From contig NC_061065.1 of NCBI RefSeq assembly GCF_021917145.1, positions 8,013,314-8,077,313 of the forward strand: a stretch of 64,000 nucleotides of DNA. Direction: 5' to 3'. The translations under genes were made by a program, and so were the position numbers. This DNA is from Hypomesus transpacificus. Lineage: Eukaryota > Chordata > Actinopteri > Osmeriformes > Osmeridae. Shown in pieces: positions 12,780 through 44,784 of the stretch. The notes under the pieces were generated by a model. That model saw only the letters and a list, made by a program, of their open reading frames with translations. It searched no databases and was not told where the DNA came from. Within the stretch, counting starts at the first letter, position 1, and each line of letters opens with the position of its first letter.

Positions 12780-13735
<956 letters not shown>

Positions 13736-16117: not shown

Positions 16118-16151
<34 letters not shown>

Positions 16152-21014: not shown

Positions 21015-21022
21015 TGACGTCA
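21015..21022 (+). promoter_or_regulatory. ATF/CREB site of SRP RNA copy 1
   Basis: TGACGTCA at -49 from the RNA start. The human 7SL promoter is known to use an ATF/CREB site near -50 together with internal Pol III elements, so position and sequence both fit. Copy 1 lacks one C in the ATGGCCCACACC segment between site and start, hence 1 bp closer. Confidence 0.85.
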
Positions 21023-21063
21023 CATGAAATCAACTCATGGCCACACCTGCAGCTTCAGATCTC

Positions 21064-21362
21064 GCCGGACACGGTGGCGCGTGCCTGTAATCCAAGTTGC
21101 CGGGAGGCTGAGGTTGTCGGATCGAATGAGCCTGGGGTTTGTGGGATGCAGTCCGCTATGTCGAACGGGTGTCCAGACTAAGTTCGGTATCGATATGGTG
21201 CTCCTGGGGGAGCCCGGGACTACCAGGTCGTCTAAGGAGAGGTGTACCGGCCCAGGTCGGAAACGGAGCAGGTCAAAGCCCCCGTACCGTCCAGTAGTGG
21301 GTTAGCGCCTGTGAATAGACGCTGCAGCTCAGCCTGGGCAATACTTCGGAACCCAAACTTTT
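21064..21362 (+). ncRNA. rn7sl: SRP (7SL) RNA, copy 1
   Basis: 7SL RNA is the scaffold of the signal recognition particle, which binds signal peptides and targets ribosomes to the ER. The 299-nt sequence starts GCCGGACACGGTGGCGCG and carries the Alu-domain TGTAAT turn (23-28), which contacts SRP9/14. Helix 6 is at about 133-164. Helix 8 (about 186-212, CCAGGTCGGAAACGGAGCAG) is nearly identical to human. The GTGAATAG strand closes the S domain and a TTTT Pol III terminator ends the gene. Haplotype H1. A C-to-A change precedes the T-run (CCCAAACTTTT). Its spacer is an older type with TTGCGTTGATAAAT and TTAATCCTTGG. Confidence 0.95.
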
Positions 21363-21598
21363 AATTCTTCTCCGTTGCGTTGATAAATAAAACAACAGTT
21401 CCTTTCGTTGCTTATTATGTCACAGAGAAGATCCAAAACGACAGGCTGTTAATCCTTGGGGGTTTCATAGAACCTCACGTTCCCAAAAAGGCTGGCCTAA
21501 CACACTTGATTTCATTTATTTAGAATGCACTGAATACAGACCAGAGAATTCGACTCAAGACAAATGAATAGGCTGTCCAGAATGTAGCCCATTCTCGA

Positions 21599-21606
21599 TG
21601 ACGTCA
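21599..21606 (+). promoter_or_regulatory. ATF/CREB site, typical of array units
   Basis: TGACGTCA at -50 to -43 of copy 2. The same octamer at the same offset precedes copies 3-41, in the context CTCGATGACGTCACATG. Confidence 0.88.
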
Positions 21607-21648
21607 CATGAAATCAACTCATGGCCCACACCTGCAGCTTCAGATCTC

Positions 21649-21947
21649 GCCGGACACGGTGGCGCGTGCCTGTAATCCAAGTTGCCGGGAGGCTGAGGTT
21701 GTCGGATCGAATGAGCCTGGGGTTTGTGGGATGCAGTCCGCTATGTCGAACGGGTGTCCAGACTAAGTTCGGTATCGATATGGTGCTCCTGGGGGAGCCC
21801 GGGACTACCAGGTCGTCTAAGGAGAGGTGTACCGGCCCAGGTCGGAAACGGAGCAGGTCAAAGCCCCCGTACCGTCCAGTAGTGGGTTAGCGCCTGTGAA
21901 TAGACGCTGCAGCTCAGCCTGGGCAATACTTCGGAACCCAACCTTTT
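21649..21947 (+). ncRNA. rn7sl: SRP RNA, copy 2
   Basis: H1, 299 nt. Its spacer is of the same older type as that of copy 1 (TTGCGTTGATAAAT, TTAATCC). Confidence 0.96.
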
Positions 21948-22233
21948 AATTCTTCTCCGTTGCGTTGATAAATAAAACAACAGTTCCTTTCGTTGCTTAT
22001 TATGTCACAGAGAAGATCCAAAACGACAGGCTGTTAATCCTTGGGGGTTTCATAGAACCTCACGTTCCCAAAAAGGCTGGCCTAACACACTTGATTTCAT
22101 TTATTTAGAATGCACTGAATACAGACCAGAGAATTCGACTCAAGACAAATGAATAGGCTGTCCAGAATGTAGCCCATTCTCGATGACGTCACATGAAATC
22201 AACTCATGGCCCACACCTGCAGCTTCAGATCTC

Positions 22234-22532
22234 GCCGGACACGGTGGCGCGTGCCTGTAATCCAAGTTGCCGGGAGGCTGAGGTTGTCGGATCGAATGAG
22301 CCTGGGGTTTGTGGGATGCAGTCCGCTATGTCGAACGGGTGTCCAGACTAAGTTCGGTATCGATATGGTGCTCCTGGGGGAGCCCGGGACTACCAGGTCG
22401 TCTAAGGAGAGGTGTACCGGCCCAGGTCGGAAACGGAGCAGGTCAAAGCCCCCGTACCGTCCAGTAGTGGGTTAGCGCCTGTGAATAGACGCTGCAGCTC
22501 AGCCTGGGCAATACTTCGGAACCCAACCTTTT
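22234..22532 (+). ncRNA. rn7sl: SRP RNA, copy 3
   Basis: H1. The spacer has TTGTGTTGATAAAT and private changes CCAAATAGG and TTATTTGGAATGC. Confidence 0.96.
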
Positions 22533-22818
22533 AATTCTTCTCCGTTGTGTTGATAAATAAAACAACAGTTCCTTTCGTTGCTTATTATGTCACAGAGAAG
22601 ATCCAAAACGACAGGCTATTCATCTTTGGGGGTTTCATAGAACCTCACGTTCCCAAATAGGCTGGCCTAACACACTTGATTTCATTTATTTGGAATGCAC
22701 TGAATACAGACCAGAGAATTCGACTCAAGACAAATGAATAGGCTGTCCAGAATGTAGCCCATTCTCGATGACGTCACATGAAATCAACTCATGGCCCACA
22801 CCTGCAGCTTCAGATCTC

Positions 22819-23117
22819 GCCGGACACGGTGGCGCGTGCCTGTAATCCAAGTTGCCGGGAGGCTGAGGTTGTCGGATCGAATGAGCCTGGGGTTTGTGGG
22901 ATGCAGTCCGCTATGTCGAACGGGTGTCCAGACTAAGTTCGGTATCGATATGGTGCTCCTGGGGGAGCCCGGGACTACCAGGTCGTCTAAGGAGAGGTGT
23001 ACCGGCCCAGGTCGGAAACGGAGCAGGTCAAAGCCCCCGTACCGTCCAGTAGTGGGTTAGCGCCTGTGAATAGACGCTGCAGCTCAGCCTGGGCAATACT
23101 TCGGAACCCAACCTTTT
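22819..23117 (+). ncRNA. rn7sl: SRP RNA, copy 4
   Basis: H1. Last unit with the TTGATAAAT spacer; later units have TTGATCAAT. Confidence 0.96.
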
Positions 23118-23403
23118 AATTCTTCTCCGTTGTGTTGATAAATAAAACAACAGTTCCTTTCGTTGCTTATTATGTCACAGAGAAGATCCAAAACGACAGG
23201 CTATTCATCTTTGGGGGTTTCATAGAACCTCACGTTCCCAAAAAGGCTGGCCTAACACACTTGATTTCATTTATTTAGAATGCACTGAATACAGACCAGA
23301 GAATTCGACTCAAGACAAATGAATAGGCTGTCCAGAATGTAGCCCATTCTCGATGACGTCACATGAAATCAACTCATGGCCCACACCTGCAGCTTCAGAT
23401 CTC

Positions 23404-23702
23404 GCCGGACACGGTGGCGCGTGCCTGTAATCCAAGTTGCCGGGAGGCTGAGGTTGTCGGATCGAATGAGCCTGGGGTTTGTGGGACGCAGTCCGCTATG
23501 TCGAACGGGTGTCCAGACTAAGTTCGGTATCGATATGGTGCTCCTGGGGGAGCCCGGGACTACCAGGTCGTCTAAGGAGAGGTGTACCGGCCCAGGTCGG
23601 AAACGGAGCAGGTCAAAGCCCCCGTACCGTCCAGTAGTGGGTTAGCGCCTGTGAATAGACGCTGCAGCTCAGCCTGGGCAATACTTCGGAACCCAACCTT
23701 TT
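23404..23702 (+). ncRNA. rn7sl: SRP RNA, copy 5
   Basis: H2, followed by the first class A spacer. Confidence 0.96.
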
Positions 23703-23988
23703 AATTCTTCTCCGTTGTGTTGATCAATAAAACAACCGTTCCTTTGGTTGCTTATTATGTCACAGAGAAGATCCAAAACGACAGGCTATTCACCTTTGGG
23801 GGTTTCATAGAACCTCACGTTCCCAAAAAGGCTGGCCTAACACACTTGATGTCATTTATTCAGGATGCACTGAATACAGACCAGAGAATTCGACTCAAGA
23901 CAAATGAATAGGCTGTCCAGAATGTAGCCCATTCTCGATGACGTCACATGAAATCAACTCATGGCCCACACCTGCAGCTTCAGATCTC

Positions 23989-24287
23989 GCCGGACACGGT
24001 GGCGCGTGCCTGTAATCCAAGTTGCCGGGAGGCTGAGGTTGTCGGATCGAATGAGCCTGGGGTTTGTGGGACGCAGTTCGCTATGTCGAACGGGTGTCCA
24101 GACTAAGTTCGGTATCGATATGGTGCTCCTGGGGGAGCCCGGGACTACCAGGTCGTCTAAGGAGAGGTGTACCGGCCCAGGTCGGAAACGGAGCAGGTCA
24201 AAGCCCCCGTACCGTCCAGTAGTGGGTTAGCGCCTGTGAATAGACGCTGCAGCTCAGCCTGGGCAATACTTCGGAACCCAACCTTTT
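23989..24287 (+). ncRNA. rn7sl: SRP RNA, copy 6
   Basis: First H3 copy; spacer A. Confidence 0.96.
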
Positions 24288-24573
24288 AATTCTTCTCCGT
24301 TGTGTTGATCAATAAAACAACCGTTCCTTTGGTTGCTTATTATGTCACAGAGAAGATCCAAAACGACAGGCTATTCACCTTTGGGGGTTTCATAGAACCT
24401 CACGTTCCCAAAAAGGCTGGCCTAACACACTTGATGTCATTTATTCAGGATGCACTGAATACAGACCAGAGAATTCGACTCAAGACAAATGAATAGGCTG
24501 TCCAGAATGTAGCCCATTCTCGATGACGTCACATGAAATCAACTCATGGCCCACACCTGCAGCTTCAGATCTC

Positions 24574-24872
24574 GCCGGACACGGTGGCGCGTGCCTGTAA
24601 TCCAAGTTGCCGGGAGGCTGAGGTTGTCGGATCGAATGAGCCTGGGGTTTGTGGGACGCAGTCCGCTATGTCGAACGGGTGTCCAGACTAAGTTCGGTAT
24701 CGATATGGTGCTCCTGGGGGAGCCCGGGACTACCAGGTCGTCTAAGGAGAGGTGTACCGGCCCAGGTCGGAAACGGAGCAGGTCAAAGCCCCCGTACCGT
24801 CCAGTAGTGGGTTAGCGCCTGTGAATAGACGCTGCAGCTCAGCCTGGGCAATACTTCGGAACCCAACCTTTT
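24574..24872 (+). ncRNA. rn7sl: SRP RNA, copy 7
   Basis: H2; spacer A. Confidence 0.96.
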
Positions 24873-25158
24873 AATTCTTCTCCGTTGTGTTGATCAATAA
24901 AACAACCGTTCCTTTGGTTGCTTATTATGTCACAGAGAAGATCCAAAACGACAGGCTATTCACCTTTGGGGGTTTCATAGAACCTCACGTTCCCAAAAAG
25001 GCTGGCCTAACACACTTGATGTCATTTATTCAGGATGCACTGAATACAGACCAGAGAATTCGACTCAAGACAAATGAATAGGCTGTCCAGAATGTAGCCC
25101 ATTCTCGATGACGTCACATGAAATCAACTCATGGCCCACACCTGCAGCTTCAGATCTC

Positions 25159-25457
25159 GCCGGACACGGTGGCGCGTGCCTGTAATCCAAGTTGCCGGGA
25201 GGCTGAGGTTGTCGGATCGAATGAGCCTGGGGTTTGTGGGACGCAGTCCGCTATGTCGAACGGGTGTCCAGACTAAGTTCGGTATCGATATGGTGCTCCT
25301 GGGGGAGCCCGGGACTACCAGGTCGTCTAAGGAGAGGTGTACCGGCCCAGGTCGGAAACGGAGCAGGTCAAAGCCCCCGTACCGTCCAGTAGTGGGTTAG
25401 CGCCTGTGAATAGACGCTGCAGCTCAGCCTGGGCAATACTTCGGAACCCAACCTTTT
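25159..25457 (+). ncRNA. rn7sl: SRP RNA, copy 8
   Basis: H2; spacer B with one extra C (CATCCTTTGGG), which makes this unit 586 bp. Confidence 0.96.
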
Positions 25458-25744
25458 AATTCTTCTCCGTTGTGTTGATCAATAAAACAACAGTTCCTTT
25501 CGTTGCTTATTATGTCACAGAGAAGATCCAAAACGACAGGCTATTCATCCTTTGGGGGTTTCATAGAACCTCACGTTCCCAAAAAGGCTGGCCTAACACA
25601 CTTGATTTCATTTATTCAGAATGCACTGAATACAGACCAGAGAATTCGACTCAAGACAAATGAATAGGCTGTCCAGAATGTAGCCCATTCTCGATGACGT
25701 CACATGAAATCAACTCATGGCCCACACCTGCAGCTTCAGATCTC

Positions 25745-26043
25745 GCCGGACACGGTGGCGCGTGCCTGTAATCCAAGTTGCCGGGAGGCTGAGGTTGTCG
25801 GATCGAATGAGCCTGGGGTTTGTGGGACGCAGTTCGCTATGTCGAACGGGTGTCCAGACTAAGTTCGGTATCGATATGGTGCTCCTGGGGGAGCCCGGGA
25901 CTACCAGGTCGTCTAAGGAGAGGTGTACCGGCCCAGGTCGGAAACGGAGCAGGTCAAAGCCCCCGTACCGTCCAGTAGTGGGTTAGCGCCTGTGAATAGA
26001 CGCTGCAGCTCAGCCTGGGCAATACTTCGGAACCCAACCTTTT
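25745..26043 (+). ncRNA. rn7sl: SRP RNA, copy 9
   Basis: H3; spacer AV. Confidence 0.96.
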
Positions 26044-26329
26044 AATTCTTCTCCGTTGTGTTGATCAATAAAACAACCGTTCCTTTGGTTGCTTATTATG
26101 TCACAGAGAAGATCCAAAACGACAGGCTATTCACCTTTGGGGGTTTCATAGAACCTCACGTTCCCAAAAAGGCTGGCCTAACACACGTGATGTCATTTAT
26201 TCAGGATGCACTGAATACAGACCAGAGAATTCGACTCAAGACAAATGAATAGGCTGTCCAGAATGTAGCCCATTCTCGATGACGTCACATGAAATCAACT
26301 CATGGCCCACACCTGCAGCTTCAGATCTC

Positions 26330-26628
26330 GCCGGACACGGTGGCGCGTGCCTGTAATCCAAGTTGCCGGGAGGCTGAGGTTGTCGGATCGAATGAGCCTG
26401 GGGTTTGTGGGACGCAGTTCGCTATGTCGAACGGGTGTCCAGACTAAGTTCGGTATCGATATGGTGCTCCTGGGGGAGCCCGGGACTACCAGGTCGTCTA
26501 AGGAGAGGTGTACCGGCCCAGGTCGGAAACGGAGCAGGTCAAAGCCCCCGTACCGTCCAGTAGTGGGTTAGCGCCTGTGAATAGACGCTGCAGCTCAGCC
26601 TGGGCAATACTTCGGAACCCAACCTTTT
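26330..26628 (+). ncRNA. rn7sl: SRP RNA, copy 10
   Basis: H3; spacer A. Confidence 0.96.
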
Positions 26629-26914
26629 AATTCTTCTCCGTTGTGTTGATCAATAAAACAACCGTTCCTTTGGTTGCTTATTATGTCACAGAGAAGATCC
26701 AAAACGACAGGCTATTCACCTTTGGGGGTTTCATAGAACCTCACGTTCCCAAAAAGGCTGGCCTAACACACTTGATGTCATTTATTCAGGATGCACTGAA
26801 TACAGACCAGAGAATTCGACTCAAGACAAATGAATAGGCTGTCCAGAATGTAGCCCATTCTCGATGACGTCACATGAAATCAACTCATGGCCCACACCTG
26901 CAGCTTCAGATCTC

Positions 26915-27213
26915 GCCGGACACGGTGGCGCGTGCCTGTAATCCAAGTTGCCGGGAGGCTGAGGTTGTCGGATCGAATGAGCCTGGGGTTTGTGGGACGC
27001 AGTCCGCTATGTCGAACGGGTGTCCAGACTAAGTTCGGTATCGATATGGTGCTCCTGGGGGAGCCCGGGACTACCAGGTCGTCTAAGGAGAGGTGTACCG
27101 GCCCAGGTCGGAAACGGAGCAGGTCAAAGCCCCCGTACCGTCCAGTAGTGGGTTAGCGCCTGTGAATAGACGCTGCAGCTCAGCCTGGGCAATACTTCGG
27201 AACCCAACCTTTT
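26915..27213 (+). ncRNA. rn7sl: SRP RNA, copy 11
   Basis: H2; spacer B. Confidence 0.96.
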
Positions 27214-27499
27214 AATTCTTCTCCGTTGTGTTGATCAATAAAACAACAGTTCCTTTCGTTGCTTATTATGTCACAGAGAAGATCCAAAACGACAGGCTAT
27301 TCATCTTTGGGGGTTTCATAGAACCTCACGTTCCCAAAAAGGCTGGCCTAACACACTTGATTTCATTTATTCAGAATGCACTGAATACAGACCAGAGAAT
27401 TCGACTCAAGACAAATGAATAGGCTGTCCAGAATGTAGCCCATTCTCGATGACGTCACATGAAATCAACTCATGGCCCACACCTGCAGCTTCAGATCTC

Positions 27500-27798
27500 G
27501 CCGGACACGGTGGCGCGTGCCTGTAATCCAAGTTGCCGGGAGGCTGAGGTTGTCGGATCGAATGAGCCTGGGGTTTGTGGGACGCAGTTCGCTATGTCGA
27601 ACGGGTGTCCAGACTAAGTTCGGTATCGATATGGTGCTCCTGGGGGAGCCCGGGACTACCAGGTCGTCTAAGGAGAGGTGTACCGGCCCAGGTCGGAAAC
27701 GGAGCAGGTCAAAGCCCCCGTACCGTCCAGTAGTGGGTTAGCGCCTGTGAATAGACGCTGCAGCTCAGCCTGGGCAATACTTCGGAACCCAACCTTTT
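27500..27798 (+). ncRNA. rn7sl: SRP RNA, copy 12
   Basis: H3; spacer A. Confidence 0.96.
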
Positions 27799-28084
27799 AA
27801 TTCTTCTCCGTTGTGTTGATCAATAAAACAACCGTTCCTTTGGTTGCTTATTATGTCACAGAGAAGATCCAAAACGACAGGCTATTCACCTTTGGGGGTT
27901 TCATAGAACCTCACGTTCCCAAAAAGGCTGGCCTAACACACTTGATGTCATTTATTCAGGATGCACTGAATACAGACCAGAGAATTCGACTCAAGACAAA
28001 TGAATAGGCTGTCCAGAATGTAGCCCATTCTCGATGACGTCACATGAAATCAACTCATGGCCCACACCTGCAGCTTCAGATCTC

Positions 28085-28383
28085 GCCGGACACGGTGGCG
28101 CGTGCCTGTAATCCAAGTTGCCGGGAGGCTGAGGTTGTCGGATCGAATGAGCCTGGGGTTTGTGGGACGCAGTCCGCTATGTCGAACGGGTGTCCAGACT
28201 AAGTTCGGTATCGATATGGTGCTCCTGGGGGAGCCCGGGACTACCAGGTCGTCTAAGGAGAGGTGTACCGGCCCAGGTCGGAAACGGAGCAGGTCAAAGC
28301 CCCCGTACCGTCCAGTAGTGGGTTAGCGCCTGTGAATAGACGCTGCAGCTCAGCCTGGGCAATACTTCGGAACCCAACCTTTT
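28085..28383 (+). ncRNA. rn7sl: SRP RNA, copy 13
   Basis: H2; spacer A. Confidence 0.96.
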
Positions 28384-28669
28384 AATTCTTCTCCGTTGTG
28401 TTGATCAATAAAACAACCGTTCCTTTGGTTGCTTATTATGTCACAGAGAAGATCCAAAACGACAGGCTATTCACCTTTGGGGGTTTCATAGAACCTCACG
28501 TTCCCAAAAAGGCTGGCCTAACACACTTGATGTCATTTATTCAGGATGCACTGAATACAGACCAGAGAATTCGACTCAAGACAAATGAATAGGCTGTCCA
28601 GAATGTAGCCCATTCTCGATGACGTCACATGAAATCAACTCATGGCCCACACCTGCAGCTTCAGATCTC

Positions 28670-28968
28670 GCCGGACACGGTGGCGCGTGCCTGTAATCCA
28701 AGTTGCCGGGAGGCTGAGGTTGTCGGATCGAATGAGCCTGGGGTTTGTGGGACGCAGTCCGCTATGTCGAACGGGTGTCCAGACTAAGTTCGGTATCGAT
28801 ATGGTGCTCCTGGGGGAGCCCGGGACTACCAGGTCGTCTAAGGAGAGGTGTACCGGCCCAGGTCGGAAACGGAGCAGGTCAAAGCCCCCGTACCGTCCAG
28901 TAGTGGGTTAGCGCCTGTGAATAGACGCTGCAGCTCAGCCTGGGCAATACTTCGGAACCCAACCTTTT
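28670..28968 (+). ncRNA. rn7sl: SRP RNA, copy 14
   Basis: H2; spacer B but with TTATTTAGAATGC as in the left-edge units. Confidence 0.96.
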
Positions 28969-29254
28969 AATTCTTCTCCGTTGTGTTGATCAATAAAACA
29001 ACAGTTCCTTTCGTTGCTTATTATGTCACAGAGAAGATCCAAAACGACAGGCTATTCATCTTTGGGGGTTTCATAGAACCTCACGTTCCCAAAAAGGCTG
29101 GCCTAACACACTTGATTTCATTTATTTAGAATGCACTGAATACAGACCAGAGAATTCGACTCAAGACAAATGAATAGGCTGTCCAGAATGTAGCCCATTC
29201 TCGATGACGTCACATGAAATCAACTCATGGCCCACACCTGCAGCTTCAGATCTC

Positions 29255-29553
29255 GCCGGACACGGTGGCGCGTGCCTGTAATCCAAGTTGCCGGGAGGCT
29301 GAGGTTGTCGGATCGAATGAGCCTGGGGTTTGTGGGATGCAGTCCGCTATGTCGAACGGGTGTCCAGACTAAGTTCGGTATCGATATGGTGCTCCTGGGG
29401 GAGCCCGGGACTACCAGGTCGTCTAAGGAGAGGTGTACCGGCCCAGGTCGGAAACGGAGCAGGTCAAAGCCCCCGTACCGTCCAGTAGTGGGTTAGCGCC
29501 TGTGAATAGACGCTGCAGCTCAGCCTGGGCAATACTTCGGAACCCAACCTTTT
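29255..29553 (+). ncRNA. rn7sl: SRP RNA, copy 15
   Basis: H1; spacer B. First of three identical-class units (15-17). Confidence 0.96.
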
Positions 29554-29839
29554 AATTCTTCTCCGTTGTGTTGATCAATAAAACAACAGTTCCTTTCGTT
29601 GCTTATTATGTCACAGAGAAGATCCAAAACGACAGGCTATTCATCTTTGGGGGTTTCATAGAACCTCACGTTCCCAAAAAGGCTGGCCTAACACACTTGA
29701 TTTCATTTATTCAGAATGCACTGAATACAGACCAGAGAATTCGACTCAAGACAAATGAATAGGCTGTCCAGAATGTAGCCCATTCTCGATGACGTCACAT
29801 GAAATCAACTCATGGCCCACACCTGCAGCTTCAGATCTC

Positions 29840-30138
29840 GCCGGACACGGTGGCGCGTGCCTGTAATCCAAGTTGCCGGGAGGCTGAGGTTGTCGGATCG
29901 AATGAGCCTGGGGTTTGTGGGATGCAGTCCGCTATGTCGAACGGGTGTCCAGACTAAGTTCGGTATCGATATGGTGCTCCTGGGGGAGCCCGGGACTACC
30001 AGGTCGTCTAAGGAGAGGTGTACCGGCCCAGGTCGGAAACGGAGCAGGTCAAAGCCCCCGTACCGTCCAGTAGTGGGTTAGCGCCTGTGAATAGACGCTG
30101 CAGCTCAGCCTGGGCAATACTTCGGAACCCAACCTTTT
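29840..30138 (+). ncRNA. rn7sl: SRP RNA, copy 16
   Basis: H1; spacer B, same class as its neighbours on both sides. Confidence 0.96.
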
Positions 30139-30424
30139 AATTCTTCTCCGTTGTGTTGATCAATAAAACAACAGTTCCTTTCGTTGCTTATTATGTCACA
30201 GAGAAGATCCAAAACGACAGGCTATTCATCTTTGGGGGTTTCATAGAACCTCACGTTCCCAAAAAGGCTGGCCTAACACACTTGATTTCATTTATTCAGA
30301 ATGCACTGAATACAGACCAGAGAATTCGACTCAAGACAAATGAATAGGCTGTCCAGAATGTAGCCCATTCTCGATGACGTCACATGAAATCAACTCATGG
30401 CCCACACCTGCAGCTTCAGATCTC

Positions 30425-30723
30425 GCCGGACACGGTGGCGCGTGCCTGTAATCCAAGTTGCCGGGAGGCTGAGGTTGTCGGATCGAATGAGCCTGGGGTT
30501 TGTGGGATGCAGTCCGCTATGTCGAACGGGTGTCCAGACTAAGTTCGGTATCGATATGGTGCTCCTGGGGGAGCCCGGGACTACCAGGTCGTCTAAGGAG
30601 AGGTGTACCGGCCCAGGTCGGAAACGGAGCAGGTCAAAGCCCCCGTACCGTCCAGTAGTGGGTTAGCGCCTGTGAATAGACGCTGCAGCTCAGCCTGGGC
30701 AATACTTCGGAACCCAACCTTTT
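30425..30723 (+). ncRNA. rn7sl: SRP RNA, copy 17
   Basis: H1; spacer B. Ends the 15-17 run. Confidence 0.96.
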
Positions 30724-31009
30724 AATTCTTCTCCGTTGTGTTGATCAATAAAACAACAGTTCCTTTCGTTGCTTATTATGTCACAGAGAAGATCCAAAAC
30801 GACAGGCTATTCATCTTTGGGGGTTTCATAGAACCTCACGTTCCCAAAAAGGCTGGCCTAACACACTTGATTTCATTTATTCAGAATGCACTGAATACAG
30901 ACCAGAGAATTCGACTCAAGACAAATGAATAGGCTGTCCAGAATGTAGCCCATTCTCGATGACGTCACATGAAATCAACTCATGGCCCACACCTGCAGCT
31001 TCAGATCTC

Positions 31010-34519: not shown

Positions 34520-34818
34520 GCCGGACACGGTGGCGCGTGCCTGTAATCCAAGTTGCCGGGAGGCTGAGGTTGTCGGATCGAATGAGCCTGGGGTTTGTGG
34601 GATGCAGTCCGCTATGTCGAACGGGTGTCCAGACTAAGTTCGGTATCGATATGGTGCTCCTGGGGGAGCCCGGGACTACCAGGTCGTCTAAGGAGAGGTG
34701 TACCGGCCCAGGTCGGAAACGGAGCAGGTCAAAGCCCCCGTACCGTCCAGTAGTGGGTTAGCGCCTGTGAATAGACGCTGCAGCTCAGCCTGGGCAATAC
34801 TTCGGAACCCAACCTTTT
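34520..34818 (+). ncRNA. rn7sl: SRP RNA, copy 24
   Basis: H1; spacer B'. Confidence 0.96.
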
Positions 34819-35104
34819 AATTCTTCTCCGTTGTGTTGATCAATAAAACAACAGTTCCTTTGGTTGCTTATTATGTCACAGAGAAGATCCAAAACGACAG
34901 GCTATTCATCTTTGGGGGTTTCATAGAACCTCACGTTCCCAAAAAGGCTGGCCTAACACACTTGATTTCATTTATTCAGAATGCACTGAATACAGACCAG
35001 AGAATTCGACTCAAGACAAATGAATAGGCTGTCCAGAATGTAGCCCATTCTCGATGACGTCACATGAAATCAACTCATGGCCCACACCTGCAGCTTCAGA
35101 TCTC

Positions 35105-35403
35105 GCCGGACACGGTGGCGCGTGCCTGTAATCCAAGTTGCCGGGAGGCTGAGGTTGTCGGATCGAATGAGCCTGGGGTTTGTGGGATGCAGTCCGCTAT
35201 GTCGAACGGGTGTCCAGACTAAGTTCGGTATCGATATGGTGCTCCTGGGGGAGCCCGGGACTACCAGGTCGTCTAAGGAGAGGTGTACCGGCCCAGGTCG
35301 GAAACGGAGCAGGTCAAAGCCCCCGTACCGTCCAGTAGTGGGTTAGCGCCTGTGAATAGACGCTGCAGCTCAGCCTGGGCAATACTTCGGAACCCAACCT
35401 TTT
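35105..35403 (+). ncRNA. rn7sl: SRP RNA, copy 25
   Basis: H1; spacer B'. Confidence 0.96.
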
Positions 35404-35689
35404 AATTCTTCTCCGTTGTGTTGATCAATAAAACAACAGTTCCTTTGGTTGCTTATTATGTCACAGAGAAGATCCAAAACGACAGGCTATTCATCTTTGG
35501 GGGTTTCATAGAACCTCACGTTCCCAAAAAGGCTGGCCTAACACACTTGATTTCATTTATTCAGAATGCACTGAATACAGACCAGAGAATTCGACTCAAG
35601 ACAAATGAATAGGCTGTCCAGAATGTAGCCCATTCTCGATGACGTCACATGAAATCAACTCATGGCCCACACCTGCAGCTTCAGATCTC

Positions 35690-35988
35690 GCCGGACACGG
35701 TGGCGCGTGCCTGTAATCCAAGTTGCCGGGAGGCTGAGGTTGTCGGATCGAATGAGCCTGGGGTTTGTGGGACGCAGTTCGCTATGTCGAACGGGTGTCC
35801 AGACTAAGTTCGGTATCGATATGGTGCTCCTGGGGGAGCCCGGGACTACCAGGTCGTCTAAGGAGAGGTGTACCGGCCCAGGTCGGAAACGGAGCAGGTC
35901 AAAGCCCCCGTACCGTCCAGTAGTGGGTTAGCGCCTGTGAATAGACGCTGCAGCTCAGCCTGGGCAATACTTCGGAACCCAACCTTTT
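35690..35988 (+). ncRNA. rn7sl: SRP RNA, copy 26
   Basis: H3; mixed spacer (CCGTTCC and AGGATGC ends of A, CATC and GATTTC middle of B). Confidence 0.96.
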
Positions 35989-36274
35989 AATTCTTCTCCG
36001 TTGTGTTGATCAATAAAACAACCGTTCCTTTGGTTGCTTATTATGTCACAGAGAAGATCCAAAACGACAGGCTATTCATCTTTGGGGGTTTCATAGAACC
36101 TCACGTTCCCAAAAAGGCTGGCCTAACACACTTGATTTCATTTATTCAGGATGCACTGAATACAGACCAGAGAATTCGACTCAAGACAAATGAATAGGCT
36201 GTCCAGAATGTAGCCCATTCTCGATGACGTCACATGAAATCAACTCATGGCCCACACCTGCAGCTTCAGATCTC

Positions 36275-36573
36275 GCCGGACACGGTGGCGCGTGCCTGTA
36301 ATCCAAGTTGCCGGGAGGCTGAGGTTGTCGGATCGAATGAGCCTGGGGTTTGTGGGACGCAGTTCGCTATGTCGAACGGGTGTCCAGACTAAGTTCGGTA
36401 TCGATATGGTGCTCCTGGGGGAGCCCGGGACTACCAGGTCGTCTAAGGAGAGGTGTACCGGCCCAGGTCGGAAACGGAGCAGGTCAAAGCCCCCGTACCG
36501 TCCAGTAGTGGGTTAGCGCCTGTGAATAGACGCTGCAGCTCAGCCTGGGCAATACTTCGGAACCCAACCTTTT
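36275..36573 (+). ncRNA. rn7sl: SRP RNA, copy 27
   Basis: H3; spacer AV. Confidence 0.96.
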
Positions 36574-36859
36574 AATTCTTCTCCGTTGTGTTGATCAATA
36601 AAACAACCGTTCCTTTGGTTGCTTATTATGTCACAGAGAAGATCCAAAACGACAGGCTATTCACCTTTGGGGGTTTCATAGAACCTCACGTTCCCAAAAA
36701 GGCTGGCCTAACACACGTGATGTCATTTATTCAGGATGCACTGAATACAGACCAGAGAATTCGACTCAAGACAAATGAATAGGCTGTCCAGAATGTAGCC
36801 CATTCTCGATGACGTCACATGAAATCAACTCATGGCCCACACCTGCAGCTTCAGATCTC

Positions 36860-37158
36860 GCCGGACACGGTGGCGCGTGCCTGTAATCCAAGTTGCCGGG
36901 AGGCTGAGGTTGTCGGATCGAATGAGCCTGGGGTTTGTGGGACGCAGTTCGCTATGTCGAACGGGTGTCCAGACTAAGTTCGGTATCGATATGGTGCTCC
37001 TGGGGGAGCCCGGGACTACCAGGTCGTCTAAGGAGAGGTGTACCGGCCCAGGTCGGAAACGGAGCAGGTCAAAGCCCCCGTACCGTCCAGTAGTGGGTTA
37101 GCGCCTGTGAATAGACGCTGCAGCTCAGCCTGGGCAATACTTCGGAACCCAACCTTTT
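36860..37158 (+). ncRNA. rn7sl: SRP RNA, copy 28
   Basis: H3; spacer AV, the same class as copy 27. Confidence 0.96.
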
Positions 37159-37444
37159 AATTCTTCTCCGTTGTGTTGATCAATAAAACAACCGTTCCTT
37201 TGGTTGCTTATTATGTCACAGAGAAGATCCAAAACGACAGGCTATTCACCTTTGGGGGTTTCATAGAACCTCACGTTCCCAAAAAGGCTGGCCTAACACA
37301 CGTGATGTCATTTATTCAGGATGCACTGAATACAGACCAGAGAATTCGACTCAAGACAAATGAATAGGCTGTCCAGAATGTAGCCCATTCTCGATGACGT
37401 CACATGAAATCAACTCATGGCCCACACCTGCAGCTTCAGATCTC

Positions 37445-37743
37445 GCCGGACACGGTGGCGCGTGCCTGTAATCCAAGTTGCCGGGAGGCTGAGGTTGTCG
37501 GATCGAATGAGCCTGGGGTTTGTGGGACGCAGTTCGCTATGTCGAACGGGTGTCCAGACTAAGTTCGGTATCGATATGGTGCTCCTGGGGGAGCCCGGGA
37601 CTACCAGGTCGTCTAAGGAGAGGTGTACCGGCCCAGGTCGGAAACGGAGCAGGTCAAAGCCCCCGTACCGTCCAGTAGTGGGTTAGCGCCTGTGAATAGA
37701 CGCTGCAGCTCAGCCTGGGCAATACTTCGGAACCCAACCTTTT
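37445..37743 (+). ncRNA. rn7sl: SRP RNA, copy 29
   Basis: H3; mixed spacer (CAGTTCCTTTGG, CATC, then GATGTC and AGAATGC). Confidence 0.96.
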
Positions 37744-38029
37744 AATTCTTCTCCGTTGTGTTGATCAATAAAACAACAGTTCCTTTGGTTGCTTATTATG
37801 TCACAGAGAAGATCCAAAACGACAGGCTATTCATCTTTGGGGGTTTCATAGAACCTCACGTTCCCAAAAAGGCTGGCCTAACACACTTGATGTCATTTAT
37901 TCAGAATGCACTGAATACAGACCAGAGAATTCGACTCAAGACAAATGAATAGGCTGTCCAGAATGTAGCCCATTCTCGATGACGTCACATGAAATCAACT
38001 CATGGCCCACACCTGCAGCTTCAGATCTC

Positions 38030-38328
38030 GCCGGACACGGTGGCGCGTGCCTGTAATCCAAGTTGCCGGGAGGCTGAGGTTGTCGGATCGAATGAGCCTG
38101 GGGTTTGTGGGACGCAGTTCGCTATGTCGAACGGGTGTCCAGACTAAGTTCGGTATCGATATGGTGCTCCTGGGGGAGCCCGGGACTACCAGGTCGTCTA
38201 AGGAGAGGTGTACCGGCCCAGGTCGGAAACGGAGCAGGTCAAAGCCCCCGTACCGTCCAGTAGTGGGTTAGCGCCTGTGAATAGACGCTGCAGCTCAGCC
38301 TGGGCAATACTTCGGAACCCAACCTTTT
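38030..38328 (+). ncRNA. rn7sl: SRP RNA, copy 30
   Basis: H3 joined to a full class B spacer, an unusual pairing within this array. Confidence 0.96.
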
Positions 38329-38614
38329 AATTCTTCTCCGTTGTGTTGATCAATAAAACAACAGTTCCTTTCGTTGCTTATTATGTCACAGAGAAGATCC
38401 AAAACGACAGGCTATTCATCTTTGGGGGTTTCATAGAACCTCACGTTCCCAAAAAGGCTGGCCTAACACACTTGATTTCATTTATTCAGAATGCACTGAA
38501 TACAGACCAGAGAATTCGACTCAAGACAAATGAATAGGCTGTCCAGAATGTAGCCCATTCTCGATGACGTCACATGAAATCAACTCATGGCCCACACCTG
38601 CAGCTTCAGATCTC

Positions 38615-38913
38615 GCCGGACACGGTGGCGCGTGCCTGTAATCCAAGTTGCCGGGAGGCTGAGGTTGTCGGATCGAATGAGCCTGGGGTTTGTGGGATGC
38701 AGTCCGCTATGTCGAACGGGTGTCCAGACTAAGTTCGGTATCGATATGGTGCTCCTGGGGGAGCCCGGGACTACCAGGTCGTCTAAGGAGAGGTGTACCG
38801 GCCCAGGTCGGAAACGGAGCAGGTCAAAGCCCCCGTACCGTCCAGTAGTGGGTTAGCGCCTGTGAATAGACGCTGCAGCTCAGCCTGGGCAATACTTCGG
38901 AACCCAACCTTTT
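38615..38913 (+). ncRNA. rn7sl: SRP RNA, copy 31
   Basis: H1; spacer B' with one T lost (GTTCCTTGG), which makes this unit 584 bp. Confidence 0.96.
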
Positions 38914-39198
38914 AATTCTTCTCCGTTGTGTTGATCAATAAAACAACAGTTCCTTGGTTGCTTATTATGTCACAGAGAAGATCCAAAACGACAGGCTATT
39001 CATCTTTGGGGGTTTCATAGAACCTCACGTTCCCAAAAAGGCTGGCCTAACACACTTGATTTCATTTATTCAGAATGCACTGAATACAGACCAGAGAATT
39101 CGACTCAAGACAAATGAATAGGCTGTCCAGAATGTAGCCCATTCTCGATGACGTCACATGAAATCAACTCATGGCCCACACCTGCAGCTTCAGATCTC

Positions 39199-39497
39199 GC
39201 CGGACACGGTGGCGCGTGCCTGTAATCCAAGTTGCCGGGAGGCTGAGGTTGTCGGATCGAATGAGCCTGGGGTTTGTGGGACGCAGTTCGCTATGTCGAA
39301 CGGGTGTCCAGACTAAGTTCGGTATCGATATGGTGCTCCTGGGGGAGCCCGGGACTACCAGGTCGTCTAAGGAGAGGTGTACCGGCCCAGGTCGGAAACG
39401 GAGCAGGTCAAAGCCCCCGTACCGTCCAGTAGTGGGTTAGCGCCTGTGAATAGACGCTGCAGCTCAGCCTGGGCAATACTTCGGAACCCAACCTTTT
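39199..39497 (+). ncRNA. rn7sl: SRP RNA, copy 32
   Basis: H3; spacer AV. Confidence 0.96.
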
Positions 39498-39783
39498 AAT
39501 TCTTCTCCGTTGTGTTGATCAATAAAACAACCGTTCCTTTGGTTGCTTATTATGTCACAGAGAAGATCCAAAACGACAGGCTATTCACCTTTGGGGGTTT
39601 CATAGAACCTCACGTTCCCAAAAAGGCTGGCCTAACACACGTGATGTCATTTATTCAGGATGCACTGAATACAGACCAGAGAATTCGACTCAAGACAAAT
39701 GAATAGGCTGTCCAGAATGTAGCCCATTCTCGATGACGTCACATGAAATCAACTCATGGCCCACACCTGCAGCTTCAGATCTC

Positions 39784-40082
39784 GCCGGACACGGTGGCGC
39801 GTGCCTGTAATCCAAGTTGCCGGGAGGCTGAGGTTGTCGGATCGAATGAGCCTGGGGTTTGTGGGACGCAGTTCGCTATGTCGAACGGGTGTCCAGACTA
39901 AGTTCGGTATCGATATGGTGCTCCTGGGGGAGCCCGGGACTACCAGGTCGTCTAAGGAGAGGTGTACCGGCCCAGGTCGGAAACGGAGCAGGTCAAAGCC
40001 CCCGTACCGTCCAGTAGTGGGTTAGCGCCTGTGAATAGACGCTGCAGCTCAGCCTGGGCAATACTTCGGAACCCAACCTTTT
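39784..40082 (+). ncRNA. rn7sl: SRP RNA, copy 33
   Basis: H3; spacer AV. Confidence 0.96.
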
Positions 40083-40368
40083 AATTCTTCTCCGTTGTGT
40101 TGATCAATAAAACAACCGTTCCTTTGGTTGCTTATTATGTCACAGAGAAGATCCAAAACGACAGGCTATTCACCTTTGGGGGTTTCATAGAACCTCACGT
40201 TCCCAAAAAGGCTGGCCTAACACACGTGATGTCATTTATTCAGGATGCACTGAATACAGACCAGAGAATTCGACTCAAGACAAATGAATAGGCTGTCCAG
40301 AATGTAGCCCATTCTCGATGACGTCACATGAAATCAACTCATGGCCCACACCTGCAGCTTCAGATCTC

Positions 40369-40667
40369 GCCGGACACGGTGGCGCGTGCCTGTAATCCAA
40401 GTTGCCGGGAGGCTGAGGTTGTCGGATCGAATGAGCCTGGGGTTTGTGGGACGCAGTCCGCTATGTCGAACGGGTGTCCAGACTAAGTTCGGTATCGATA
40501 TGGTGCTCCTGGGGGAGCCCGGGACTACCAGGTCGTCTAAGGAGAGGTGTACCGGCCCAGGTCGGAAACGGAGCAGGTCAAAGCCCCCGTACCGTCCAGT
40601 AGTGGGTTAGCGCCTGTGAATAGACGCTGCAGCTCAGCCTGGGCAATACTTCGGAACCCAACCTTTT
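40369..40667 (+). ncRNA. rn7sl: SRP RNA, copy 34
   Basis: H2; spacer B with one extra G (CAGGAATGC), which makes this unit 586 bp. Confidence 0.96.
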
Positions 40668-40954
40668 AATTCTTCTCCGTTGTGTTGATCAATAAAACAA
40701 CAGTTCCTTTCGTTGCTTATTATGTCACAGAGAAGATCCAAAACGACAGGCTATTCATCTTTGGGGGTTTCATAGAACCTCACGTTCCCAAAAAGGCTGG
40801 CCTAACACACTTGATTTCATTTATTCAGGAATGCACTGAATACAGACCAGAGAATTCGACTCAAGACAAATGAATAGGCTGTCCAGAATGTAGCCCATTC
40901 TCGATGACGTCACATGAAATCAACTCATGGCCCACACCTGCAGCTTCAGATCTC

Positions 40955-41253
40955 GCCGGACACGGTGGCGCGTGCCTGTAATCCAAGTTGCCGGGAGGCT
41001 GAGGTTGTCGGATCGAATGAGCCTGGGGTTTGTGGGATGCAGTCCGCTATGTCGAACGGGTGTCCAGACTAAGTTCGGTATCGATATGGTGCTCCTGGGG
41101 GAGCCCGGGACTACCAGGTCGTCTAAGGAGAGGTGTACCGGCCCAGGTCGGAAACGGAGCAGGTCAAAGCCCCCGTACCGTCCAGTAGTGGGTTAGCGCC
41201 TGTGAATAGACGCTGCAGCTCAGCCTGGGCAATACTTCGGAACCCAACCTTTT
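40955..41253 (+). ncRNA. rn7sl: SRP RNA, copy 35
   Basis: H1; spacer B. Confidence 0.96.
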
Positions 41254-41539
41254 AATTCTTCTCCGTTGTGTTGATCAATAAAACAACAGTTCCTTTCGTT
41301 GCTTATTATGTCACAGAGAAGATCCAAAACGACAGGCTATTCATCTTTGGGGGTTTCATAGAACCTCACGTTCCCAAAAAGGCTGGCCTAACACACTTGA
41401 TTTCATTTATTCAGAATGCACTGAATACAGACCAGAGAATTCGACTCAAGACAAATGAATAGGCTGTCCAGAATGTAGCCCATTCTCGATGACGTCACAT
41501 GAAATCAACTCATGGCCCACACCTGCAGCTTCAGATCTC

Positions 41540-41838
41540 GCCGGACACGGTGGCGCGTGCCTGTAATCCAAGTTGCCGGGAGGCTGAGGTTGTCGGATCG
41601 AATGAGCCTGGGGTTTGTGGGATGCAGTCCGCTATGTCGAACGGGTGTCCAGACTAAGTTCGGTATCGATATGGTGCTCCTGGGGGAGCCCGGGACTACC
41701 AGGTCGTCTAAGGAGAGGTGTACCGGCCCAGGTCGGAAACGGAGCAGGTCAAAGCCCCCGTACCGTCCAGTAGTGGGTTAGCGCCTGTGAATAGACGCTG
41801 CAGCTCAGCCTGGGCAATACTTCGGAACCCAACCTTTT
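41540..41838 (+). ncRNA. rn7sl: SRP RNA, copy 36
   Basis: H1; spacer B'. Confidence 0.96.
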
Positions 41839-42124
41839 AATTCTTCTCCGTTGTGTTGATCAATAAAACAACAGTTCCTTTGGTTGCTTATTATGTCACA
41901 GAGAAGATCCAAAACGACAGGCTATTCATCTTTGGGGGTTTCATAGAACCTCACGTTCCCAAAAAGGCTGGCCTAACACACTTGATTTCATTTATTCAGA
42001 ATGCACTGAATACAGACCAGAGAATTCGACTCAAGACAAATGAATAGGCTGTCCAGAATGTAGCCCATTCTCGATGACGTCACATGAAATCAACTCATGG
42101 CCCACACCTGCAGCTTCAGATCTC

Positions 42125-42423
42125 GCCGGACACGGTGGCGCGTGCCTGTAATCCAAGTTGCCGGGAGGCTGAGGTTGTCGGATCGAATGAGCCTGGGGTT
42201 TGTGGGACGCAGTTCGCTATGTCGAACGGGTGTCCAGACTAAGTTCGGTATCGATATGGTGCTCCTGGGGGAGCCCGGGACTACCAGGTCGTCTAAGGAG
42301 AGGTGTACCGGCCCAGGTCGGAAACGGAGCAGGTCAAAGCCCCCGTACCGTCCAGTAGTGGGTTAGCGCCTGTGAATAGACGCTGCAGCTCAGCCTGGGC
42401 AATACTTCGGAACCCAACCTTTT
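42125..42423 (+). ncRNA. rn7sl: SRP RNA, copy 37
   Basis: H3; mixed spacer, B' on its left half and AV on its right (CACACGTGATG, AGGATGC). Confidence 0.96.
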
Positions 42424-42709
42424 AATTCTTCTCCGTTGTGTTGATCAATAAAACAACAGTTCCTTTGGTTGCTTATTATGTCACAGAGAAGATCCAAAAC
42501 GACAGGCTATTCATCTTTGGGGGTTTCATAGAACCTCACGTTCCCAAAAAGGCTGGCCTAACACACGTGATGTCATTTATTCAGGATGCACTGAATACAG
42601 ACCAGAGAATTCGACTCAAGACAAATGAATAGGCTGTCCAGAATGTAGCCCATTCTCGATGACGTCACATGAAATCAACTCATGGCCCACACCTGCAGCT
42701 TCAGATCTC

Positions 42710-43008
42710 GCCGGACACGGTGGCGCGTGCCTGTAATCCAAGTTGCCGGGAGGCTGAGGTTGTCGGATCGAATGAGCCTGGGGTTTGTGGGACGCAGTTC
42801 GCTATGTCGAACGGGTGTCCAGACTAAGTTCGGTATCGATATGGTGCTCCTGGGGGAGCCCGGGACTACCAGGTCGTCTAAGGAGAGGTGTACCGGCCCA
42901 GGTCGGAAACGGAGCAGGTCAAAGCCCCCGTACCGTCCAGTAGTGGGTTAGCGCCTGTGAATAGACGCTGCAGCTCAGCCTGGGCAATACTTCGGAACCC
43001 AACCTTTT
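42710..43008 (+). ncRNA. rn7sl: SRP RNA, copy 38
   Basis: H3; spacer AV. Confidence 0.96.
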
Positions 43009-43294
43009 AATTCTTCTCCGTTGTGTTGATCAATAAAACAACCGTTCCTTTGGTTGCTTATTATGTCACAGAGAAGATCCAAAACGACAGGCTATTCACC
43101 TTTGGGGGTTTCATAGAACCTCACGTTCCCAAAAAGGCTGGCCTAACACACGTGATGTCATTTATTCAGGATGCACTGAATACAGACCAGAGAATTCGAC
43201 TCAAGACAAATGAATAGGCTGTCCAGAATGTAGCCCATTCTCGATGACGTCACATGAAATCAACTCATGGCCCACACCTGCAGCTTCAGATCTC

Positions 43295-43593
43295 GCCGGA
43301 CACGGTGGCGCGTGCCTGTAATCCAAGTTGCCGGGAGGCTGAGGTTGTCGGATCGAATGAGCCTGGGGTTTGTGGGACGCAGTTCGCTATGTCGAACGGG
43401 TGTCCAGACTAAGTTCGGTATCGATATGGTGCTCCTGGGGGAGCCCGGGACTACCAGGTCGTCTAAGGAGAGGTGTACCGGCCCAGGTCGGAAACGGAGC
43501 AGGTCAAAGCCCCCGTACCGTCCAGTAGTGGGTTAGCGCCTGTGAATAGACGCTGCAGCTCAGCCTGGGCAATACTTCGGAACCCAACCTTTT
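43295..43593 (+). ncRNA. rn7sl: SRP RNA, copy 39
   Basis: H3; spacer AV. Confidence 0.96.
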
Positions 43594-43879
43594 AATTCTT
43601 CTCCGTTGTGTTGATCAATAAAACAACCGTTCCTTTGGTTGCTTATTATGTCACAGAGAAGATCCAAAACGACAGGCTATTCACCTTTGGGGGTTTCATA
43701 GAACCTCACGTTCCCAAAAAGGCTGGCCTAACACACGTGATGTCATTTATTCAGGATGCACTGAATACAGACCAGAGAATTCGACTCAAGACAAATGAAT
43801 AGGCTGTCCAGAATGTAGCCCATTCTCGATGACGTCACATGAAATCAACTCATGGCCCACACCTGCAGCTTCAGATCTC

Positions 43880-44177
43880 GCCGGACACGTGGCGCGTGCC
43901 TGTAATCCAAGTTGCCGGGAGGCTGAGGTTGTCGGATCGAATGAGTCTGGGGTTTGTGGGACGCAGTTCGCTATGTCGAACGGGTGTCCAGACTAAGTTC
44001 GGTATCGATATGGTGCTCCTGGGGGAGCCCGGGACTACCAGGTCGTCTAAGGAGAGGTGTACCGGCCCAGGTCGGAAACGGAGCAGGTCAAAGCCCCCGT
44101 ACCGTCCAGTAGTGGGTTAGCGCCTGTGAATAGACGCTGCAGCTCAGCCTGGGCAATATTTCGAAACCCGACCTTTT
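43880..44177 (+). ncRNA. rn7sl: SRP RNA, copy 40 (diverged)
   Basis: H3, 298 nt. One G is missing in the Alu domain (GACACGTGG instead of GACACGGTGG). Other private changes are GAGTCTGG, CAATATTTCGAAAC and CCCGACC. The ATF site and T-run remain. It may be on the way to a pseudogene, as expected near an array edge. Spacer A with one more private change (ACCAAAGAATT). Confidence 0.85.
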
Positions 44178-44463
44178 AATTCTTCTCCGTTGTGTTGATC
44201 AATAAAACAACCGTTCCTTTGGTTGCTTATTATGTCACAGAGAAGATCCAAAACGACAGGCTATTCACCTTTGGGGGTTTCATAGAACCTCACGTTCCCA
44301 AAAAGGCTGGCCTAACACACTTGATGTCATTTATTCAGGATGCACTGAATACAGACCAAAGAATTCGACTCAAGACAAATGAATAGGCTGTCCAGAATGT
44401 AGCCCATTCTCGATGACGTCACATGAAATCAACTCATGGCCCACACCTGCAGCTTCAGATCTC

Positions 44464-44762
44464 GCCGGACACGGTGGCGCGTGCCTGTAATCCAAGTTGC
44501 CGGGAGGCTGAGGTTGTCGGATCGAATGAGCCTGGGGTTTGTGGGACGCAGTCCGCTATGTCGAACGGGTGTCCAGACTAAGTTCGGTATCGATATGGTG
44601 CTCCTGGGGGAGCCCGGGACTACCAGGTCGTCTAAGGAGAGGTGTACCGGCCCAGGTCGGAAACGGAGCAGGTCAAAGCCCCCGTACCGTCCAGTAGTGG
44701 GTTAGCGCCTGTGAATAGACGCTGCAGCTCAGCCTGGGCAATACTTCGGAACCCAACCTTTT
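44464..44762 (+). ncRNA. rn7sl: SRP RNA, copy 41
   Basis: H2, RNA intact. Its spacer stops after TTGTGTTGAT at 44784, where non-array DNA begins. Confidence 0.95.
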
Positions 44763-44784
44763 AATTCTTCTCCGTTGTGTTGAT

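Follow-up and report, generated by a model that had tools for sequence, protein, structure and literature searches.

A tandem array of 41 divergent SRP RNA genes beside rps29 and mgat2 in Hypomesus transpacificus

The array and its surroundings

The window (the whole 64,000-nucleotide stretch of Hypomesus transpacificus DNA that was analysed) carries an array of 41 SRP RNA genes with a period of 585 bp at 21015..44784 (+), or C6:8034328-8058097 in the assembly, in which all genes lie on the plus strand, head-to-tail, at 21064-44762. A sequence-only reading had described 41 near-identical SRP RNA genes organised like 5S rRNA genes, and both the number and the tandem layout hold. In the covariance check that it named, a profile search with RF00017 (gathering score 70 bits), 41/41 units gave full-length Metazoa_SRP matches over model positions 1-299 with 226.8-241 bits, and any two of units 1-40 are 95.2-100% identical (mean 99.0%). 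Homology extends from the CRE of unit 1 to ~22 nt past the T-run of unit 41, and the length of units 1-40 is 585 bp in 36 of them, 584 in 2 and 586 in 2. The array is gap-free in a window without any N, and both of its flanks lie within one 15.1-Mb contig; the copy number of 41 is the count in the assembly.

In unit 2 (21599..22183, +) the CRE/ATF site (21599..21606, +) and promoter are followed by the SRP RNA (21649..21947, +), which has haplotype TC at +84/+90, scores 241 bits against RF00017 and ends in TTTT, and by a spacer of about 236 bp (21948..22183, +) that holds most of the between-unit variation. A single gene was recognised per unit. When 225 spacer bases (21949-22173) were searched across the 437-Mb assembly, matches were found in the array only (40/40), and when the origin of the spacer was sought in 1 kb of either flank, on both strands, similarity was not above that of shuffles. 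Unit 41, the final copy, has an intact RNA (44464..44762, +) and, since homology stops at 44784, no spacer.

The array adjoins rps29, with exons at 13081..13690 (-) by protein match, and mgat2, whose open reading frame at 15851..17374 (+) matches Pfam MGAT2 with 532 bits; in this it is like human RN7SL1. We take human RPPH1 to sit in another band than 14q21.3. PMC10999094 regards RPS29 and MGAT2 as genes neighbouring RN7SL1, at a distance of up to 50 kb, and in PMC11209625 one table row under 14q21.3 holds RN7SL2, RPS29 and RN7SL1; because RPPH1 is listed in that row too, we regard it as weak support for the human neighbourhood.

A decayed copy of the array type lies at 11453..11689 (-); it lacks RNA +80 to about +178, has a mutated CRE (TGATATCA) and, at 28 diagnostic sites, is array-type at 25, canonical at 2 and neither at 1. 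Two further full-length SRP RNA genes, L001 and L002, were found 3-5 Mb from the array; with 284 and 278 bits they are closer to the RF00017 model than the array, and they are called canonical here. By our accounting the SRP RNA tally is 41 array genes, two canonical genes and one decayed copy. This total rests on two DNA searches of the genome (44 candidates each, 40 scored), which could miss a far more divergent gene, because the genome profile search scored only 26 of 7203 SRP candidates. Among 20 open frames from the flanks of L001 and L002, comparison with Pfam gave two MFS_1 matches, one above the cut-off, and neither ARF6 nor RPL36A was matched in the window or in the four flanks nearest these genes. 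N stands at 3,394 bases beside L002 and at 1,607 of another stretch. One exact pattern each, sought in viral and in prokaryote contigs, gave 0 matches, as expected for an animal sequence.

Gene structure and divergence of the array RNA

The CRE/ATF site TGACGTCA stands at -50/-43 in 40/41 units and one nt closer to the start in unit 1, and 41 of its 43 occurrences in the window are at array promoters. Two internal stretches, presumably the A box and the B box, are identical at fixed positions in 40/41 units, those of unit 40 being shifted by its own deletion, and the array B box is the nearer to the tRNA consensus (8/11 vs 6/11). The T4 end is present in 41/41 units. Where a TATA-like box was sought near -30, the -31/-22 stretch is CTCATGGCCC in the array, GTCAAAAGAA in L001 and TTCTTAAACA in L002; the region is GC-rich in the array, unlike in the canonical genes, which counts against the main reading given below. 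In the human 7SL-1 gene the CRE/ATF site is also at -50/-43 (PMC7279448). Judged by the upstream CRE/ATF site, the internal boxes and the T-run, the units appear to be 7SL-type genes, and each would act as a self-contained RNA polymerase III gene.

The array RNA is 83.3% identical to L001 and 81.9% to L002. The human SRP RNA, in the version used here, is 86.1% identical to L001 and 79.5% to the array, and in a relative-rate test with the same human sequence the array branch is the longer (33 vs 12 changes, p=0.002). Changes in the Alu/helix-5 part are skewed 38 vs 12 between the array and the canonical type, and 9 vs 3 between L001 and L002. Few changes fall in the S-domain core (4/96), and positions conserved in the model changed at 5/68 vs 45/231 elsewhere (p=0.017).

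To compare the fold, the array and L001 were placed on a single model structure, under a null of uniform substitution. Both sides of 8 model pairs differ between them, vs 3.3 by chance (p=0.004), and in the array 7 of the 8 form a pair (p=0.008); six of these seven are paired in L001 too and one is newly paired. Several results count against our main reading: array pairs are broken by one-sided changes in six cases and by a double change in one, the array forms 96/120 model pairs where L001, L002 and human each form 101, the energy of the array RNA on that structure is -91 and that of the three others -120, -118 and -121, respectively, and at 68 strongly conserved positions the array departs at 7 (A240 included), L001 at 2 and L002 at 3.

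The helix 8 GGAA loop with its flanking SRP54 motif and the helix 6 GGAG loop, which we take to have roles in SRP RNA, are present, and the stretches compared match L001 with a single C to U change in helix 8. In the Alu domain UGUAAUCC, G13, G14 and C37 are retained and C34 is replaced by U, with a possible G-U pair, if the loop bases G13, G14, C34 and C37 pair as we assume.

The position equivalent to human A240, in the 5e motif and at the SRP72 contact, is RNA position 239 (21887..21887 in unit 2, +). It is U in 41/41 array units and A in both canonical genes, and further array changes in the 5e region are found at 98, 102, 112, 113 and 241. Another diagnostic difference lies at RNA 62-63, AA in the array and UU in the canonical type. 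In the quoted passage of PMC2905702, A240 is reported to be conserved among 141 eukaryal sequences and required for SRP72 binding, and A240G, the only substitution quoted there as assayed (not A240U), abolished this binding. Since the array RNA lacks A240, we call it a divergent second SRP RNA isotype by homology and not a proven SRP subunit. An exon-by-exon genome search for SRP72, over model positions 30-58, gave one RNA-binding-domain match, in which the published motif is kept apart from L to M; with this single match and its near-published motif, no partner SRP72 isotype was seen. The earlier description of an amplified 7SL gene is therefore only partly borne out: these are SRP RNA genes with a 7SL-type CRE/ATF site and T-run, but they are not simply ordinary 7SL, being a divergent isotype with A240U while the canonical genes lie elsewhere. 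That dosage drove the amplification, as had been proposed, is a conjecture.

Variation among the units

Units 1-40 comprise 21 distinct sequences. Of the 40 units whose start motif is exact, 39 carry one of three RNA haplotypes, which differ at +84 and +90; the sole exception is unit 1, where +294C>A is joined by the loss of 1 nt from the promoter, and unit 40 stands outside that count. The RNA of unit 40 (43880..44177, +) lacks one nt at +10 and carries private substitutions at +68, +281, +286 and +292, so the unit is possibly an impaired edge copy. That all 41 units keep the RNA, the activator site and the T-run, as had been claimed, is true of the CRE and of T4 and is slightly too strong for the RNA, given units 1 and 40.

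Among units 2-39 the variable sites are 2/299 in the RNA, 0/50 in the promoter and 17/236 in the spacer (Fisher p=1e-5), units 1, 40 and 41 being excluded from this main test. Over units 1-40 the RNA has 8/299 variable sites vs 18/236 in the spacer (p=0.014), a weaker constraint that counts against the main reading. Four-gamete violations occur in 12/45 site pairs, and 8/38 adjacent units are identical vs 3.3 when shuffled (p=0.01). Dips at lag 6 and lag 12 were seen along the array as raw values only. The array is homogenised and, with like units, diverged edge units and recombinant, shuffled haplotypes, it fits the concerted evolution that had been proposed for it. Unequal crossing-over together with gene conversion may keep the units alike, and selection would hold the RNA and promoter steadier than the spacer.

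Known systems and possible roles of the array

Human 7SL has three loci, RN7SL1, RN7SL2 and RN7SL3 (PMC7073466), which are SRP RNA genes too but not an array, and the contrast drawn with the few functional human genes is upheld. Smaller clusters of adjacent 7SL genes are already known in one fish: the 7SL family of the miiuy croaker has 24 genes, eight adjacent on one chromosome and others elsewhere, 19 being >90% like the active gene (PMC11893794). Adjacent copies are thus found in both fish, 8 vs 41, and here the array is 83% identical to L001. Among the matches listed in open-licence PMC literature, none describes a long, regular array of SRP RNA genes, and passages of PMC4110674, PMC10886601, PMC7245038, PMC12193147, PMC2770079, PMC5807370 and PMC8185352 hold nothing on SRP RNA arrays. 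Fish and amphibian 5S rRNA genes form tandem arrays of oocyte and somatic types (PMC5513064). The SRP array shares with them tandem units and more than one sequence type, and its RNA is a sequence type distinct from the canonical genes, as in oocyte-type arrays; they differ in the RNA and the promoter type, and stage-specific use, a 5S feature, could be carried over only by analogy.

In this genome, 5S genes form an array of ~860-bp period on C23, which is the best-scoring type (47/12567 candidates scored), and a lower-scoring group on C21. The C23 array is interleaved with U1, a Pol II snRNA, in contrast to the SRP array, in whose units a single gene was recognised. As in the SRP array, the amplified U1 copies score below a small cluster (159.8 bits vs 166-168 on C89). 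Amplified copies are not divergent as a rule here, because the C23 array outscores some of the dispersed U1 genes (42/5505 candidates scored) and the 5S array is the best-scoring.

The reading that we prefer, with a probability of roughly 0.6, is a real in-place tandem amplification in the RN7SL1 neighbourhood, encoding a second, divergent SRP RNA isotype in self-contained Pol III units that are homogenised and likely give bulk supply. The array is probably transcribed; its likely use, as with oocyte-type 5S arrays, would be bulk SRP RNA when demand is high, as in secretory tissue, the oocyte or the embryo, and the two canonical genes would supply the remaining needs. A narrower case, whose odds for that reason overlap with those of the main reading, is that the array RNA enters a dedicated SRP in which the SRP72 contact, and perhaps the SRP9/14 contacts, are altered and the Alu/helix-5 arm is remodelled; targeting or elongation arrest would therefore differ, and the particle would serve particular stages, tissues or cell types such as the oocyte, in parallel to oocyte-type 5S rRNA. 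It is favoured by A240U in every unit, the nearby 5e-region changes, the age of the array type, which is old enough to include a decayed copy, and the lower-scoring amplified U1 array. We nevertheless hold it as a tentative and rather doubtful proposal: the single SRP72 match offers no partner isotype, the quoted binding loss concerns A240G (PMC2905702), the Alu/helix-5 skew is no stronger than that of the canonical pair, and the U1 and 5S comparisons cut both ways.

Another explanation is that a degenerating 7SL copy was amplified like a satellite, remaining mostly silent and homogenised by recombination, while the canonical genes do all the work. The longer branch, the departures at conserved positions, the weaker fold, the two canonical genes and the decayed copy nearby would all suit it, but a CRE and T4 in 41/41 units, the compensating pair changes, the steadier RNA and promoter and the few S-domain core changes make it unlikely. 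Identical units do recur, so the count may be off by some units; that the assembler duplicated far fewer true units is, however, very improbable in a window without N and with both flanks in one contig, with 21 distinct unit sequences, and with the spacer matching within the array 40/40. Most mammalian 7SL copies are retropseudogenes or 7SL-derived SINEs. Primates have over two thousand 7SL copies (PMC11893794), and a string of retropseudogenes or of a 7SL-derived SINE could be imagined; we give it almost no credence, as spacing is regular and head-to-tail and, with 40/44 candidates scored per search, L001 and L002 were the only full copies found away from the array. A 7SL retropseudogene identity is contradicted by the promoter in each unit, the absence of poly-A directly after the T-run and the tandem, not dispersed, arrangement.

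Our preferred reading, an amplified second isotype, suggests that the rps29-mgat2 neighbourhood is a candidate SRP RNA locus common to vertebrates and capable of expanding in place. Each species is usually taken to have one uniform SRP RNA that evolves slowly, yet here a divergent type, in which the SRP72-critical adenosine is replaced, accounts for 41 of the 43 full-length genes found for this RNA. The array RNA offers a natural variant of both the 5e kink and the Alu arm, and a second SRP RNA in 41 copies hints that one form may be specialised or supplied in high dose. If this is true, it raises the question of whether the SRP is tuned to particular stages or tissues, in the way that ribosomes are through their 5S types.

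Content and layout of the SRP RNA array

In the window, the covariance search (cmscan) identified 41 Metazoa_SRP genes that share the + strand and span 21064 to 44762; each covers model positions 1-299 with 226.8-241 bits, far above the gathering score of 70 bits. This bears out the 41 tandem genes that the sequence-only reading had placed in the array (21015..44784). The window contains 0 N. Of units 1-40 (numbered left to right), 36 measure 585 bp, two 584 bp and two 586 bp. It was also suggested that all units keep the RNA, the upstream site and the T-run. The CRE/ATF site and the terminal TTTT are indeed kept throughout, the latter as the RNA end in 41/41 units, but the edge units 1 and 40 deviate. 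The site TGACGTCA lies at -50/-43 of 40 array RNAs and one nucleotide nearer in unit 1; the human 7SL-1 ATF/CRE site is tabulated at -50/-43 with the identical eight letters (PMC7279448). In unit 1 the promoter has lost 1 nt and the RNA differs at one private site, whilst the RNA of unit 40 carries, besides a deletion at +10, four private changes; the private RNA changes among units 1-40 sit in these two units.

Two canonical full-length SRP RNA genes are found elsewhere on the same contig: L001 (C6:11438649, 283.8 bits), with TTGCGCAA at -52/-45, and L002 (C6:12621536, 277.6 bits), with TGACGTAA at -50/-43. RNA position 13 of L002 (L002:1513) is U, where the model has a conserved G. A decayed array-type gene (window 11453-11689, - strand) lacks the RNA middle (+80 to about +178) and has a still recognisable promoter with a mutated CRE. 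L001 and the decayed copy, used as DNA queries against the genome, each gave 44 candidates, 40 of them scored, which fits 41 array units, L001, L002 and the decayed copy. A 225-base spacer piece gave 40 matches in the genome, every one within the array.

Divergence and constraint of the array RNA

Judged by its sequence, the array appears to encode a divergent SRP RNA isotype. Its RNA is 83.3% identical to L001 and 81.9% to L002, which are 96.0% identical to each other; against human 7SL the array has 79.5% and L001 86.1%. With human as the outgroup, lineage-specific changes number 33 in the array vs 12 in L001 (p=0.0025) and 35 vs 16 in L002 (p=0.011). At 28 diagnostic positions the decayed copy is of array type in 25, of L001 type in 2 and of neither in 1, which indicates that most of the characteristic array changes predate its decay.

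Several observations point to constraint. Between L001 and the array, both sides of a model pair are changed in 8 cases vs 3.3 by chance (p=0.004), and 7 of these 8 pair in the array (6 kept and 1 gained; null 3.2, p=0.008). Changes hit 5/68 strongly conserved model positions vs 45/231 others (p=0.017) and 4/96 in positions 127-222, and the varying sites of units 2-39 number 2/299 in the RNA, 0/50 in the promoter and 17/236 in the spacer. Other counts speak against constraint: the array forms 96/120 model pairs while L001, L002 and human form 101 each, 6 of its pairs are broken by a one-sided and 1 by a two-sided change, and, placed on the model structure, the array RNA has an energy of -91 compared with -120 (L001), -118 (L002) and -121 (human). 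Adding units 1 and 40 also weakens the RNA-spacer contrast (8/299 vs 18/236, p=0.014). The changes from L001 concentrate in the Alu/helix-5 part (38/148 vs 12/151 in the rest), yet this is not special to the array, since the L001-L002 skew is equally strong (9 vs 3).

One change falls on the SRP72 contact. Array RNA position 239, equivalent to human A240 in the 5e motif, is U in 41/41 units, whereas L001 and L002 both have A; further array changes lie at positions 98, 102, 112, 113 and 241. Across 141 eukaryal and 28 archaeal sequences compared in one study, A240 was reported as conserved in the eukaryotes, and the A240G change abolished complex formation with full-length human SRP72 (PMC2905702); the residue is located in a kink-turn (PMC2995471). 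The genome has one match to the SRP72 RNA-binding domain, covering model 30-58, with the motif PDPERWMPMRER vs the published PDPXRWLPXXER (PMC2905702). A second SRP72, possibly adapted to the array type, was not found in the genome with this domain (model 30-58).

Neighbourhood and evolution of the array

The window corresponds to C6:8013314-8077313 in a 437-Mb assembly of 376 contigs. Within it, rps29 and mgat2 lie left of the array, and wdr20 and one hsp90 exon lie to the right. RPS29, MGAT2, ARF6 and POLE2 are named as cis-neighbours (within 50 kb) of human RN7SL1 (PMC10999094), and a table row for 14q21.3 holds RN7SL2, RPS29 and RN7SL1, also RPPH1 (PMC11209625). The array thus looks to occupy the human RN7SL1 neighbourhood, which argues for growth in place. 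RPPH1 lies elsewhere than 14q21.3, at odds with that row. Directly past the last unit (44786-44860) there is sequence that looks like the tail of a fish SINE, and after it a short segment similar to the 3' end of the SRP RNA. The window also holds a 72-bp tandem repeat (48173-48527; 4.9 copies, 96% matches) and an open frame of 358 aa for a Tc1/mariner-like transposase (52987-54060, - strand).

In units 2-40 the four-gamete test is failed by 12/45 informative site pairs, and identical neighbours are commoner than in shuffled orders (8/38 vs a mean of 3.3, p=0.01), a pattern that fits unequal crossing-over together with gene conversion. In the observed unit order, dips in haplotype distance are apparent at lags 6 and 12, and crossing-over perhaps involves blocks of about six units.

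Comparison with other RNA gene clusters

Clustering of 7SL genes is already known, since the miiuy croaker has 24 of them, eight adjacent on chromosome 12; zebrafish and rainbow trout have more copies than other fish (PMC11893794). Neither a long regular SRP RNA array nor a divergent array isotype was reported among the literature matches listed. In the same genome, contig C23 carries interleaved 5S rRNA and U1 snRNA genes on opposite strands (C23:16595282-16611747 and 16712455-16717439; units about 857 bp). Its 5S array has a period of about 860 bp and scores 117.8 bits, and a lower-scoring 5S group lies on C21, so that, unlike the SRP case, the highest scores belong to the larger array. U1 is partly like the SRP case: the amplified C23 genes (159.8 bits) score under a small cluster of six C89 genes (166-168 bits) and one C7 gene (164.1 bits), although some dispersed U1 genes score below them. 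Maternal and somatic rRNA types exist in fish (PMC5513064), and by this analogy we would guess that the SRP RNA array may be used stage-specifically.
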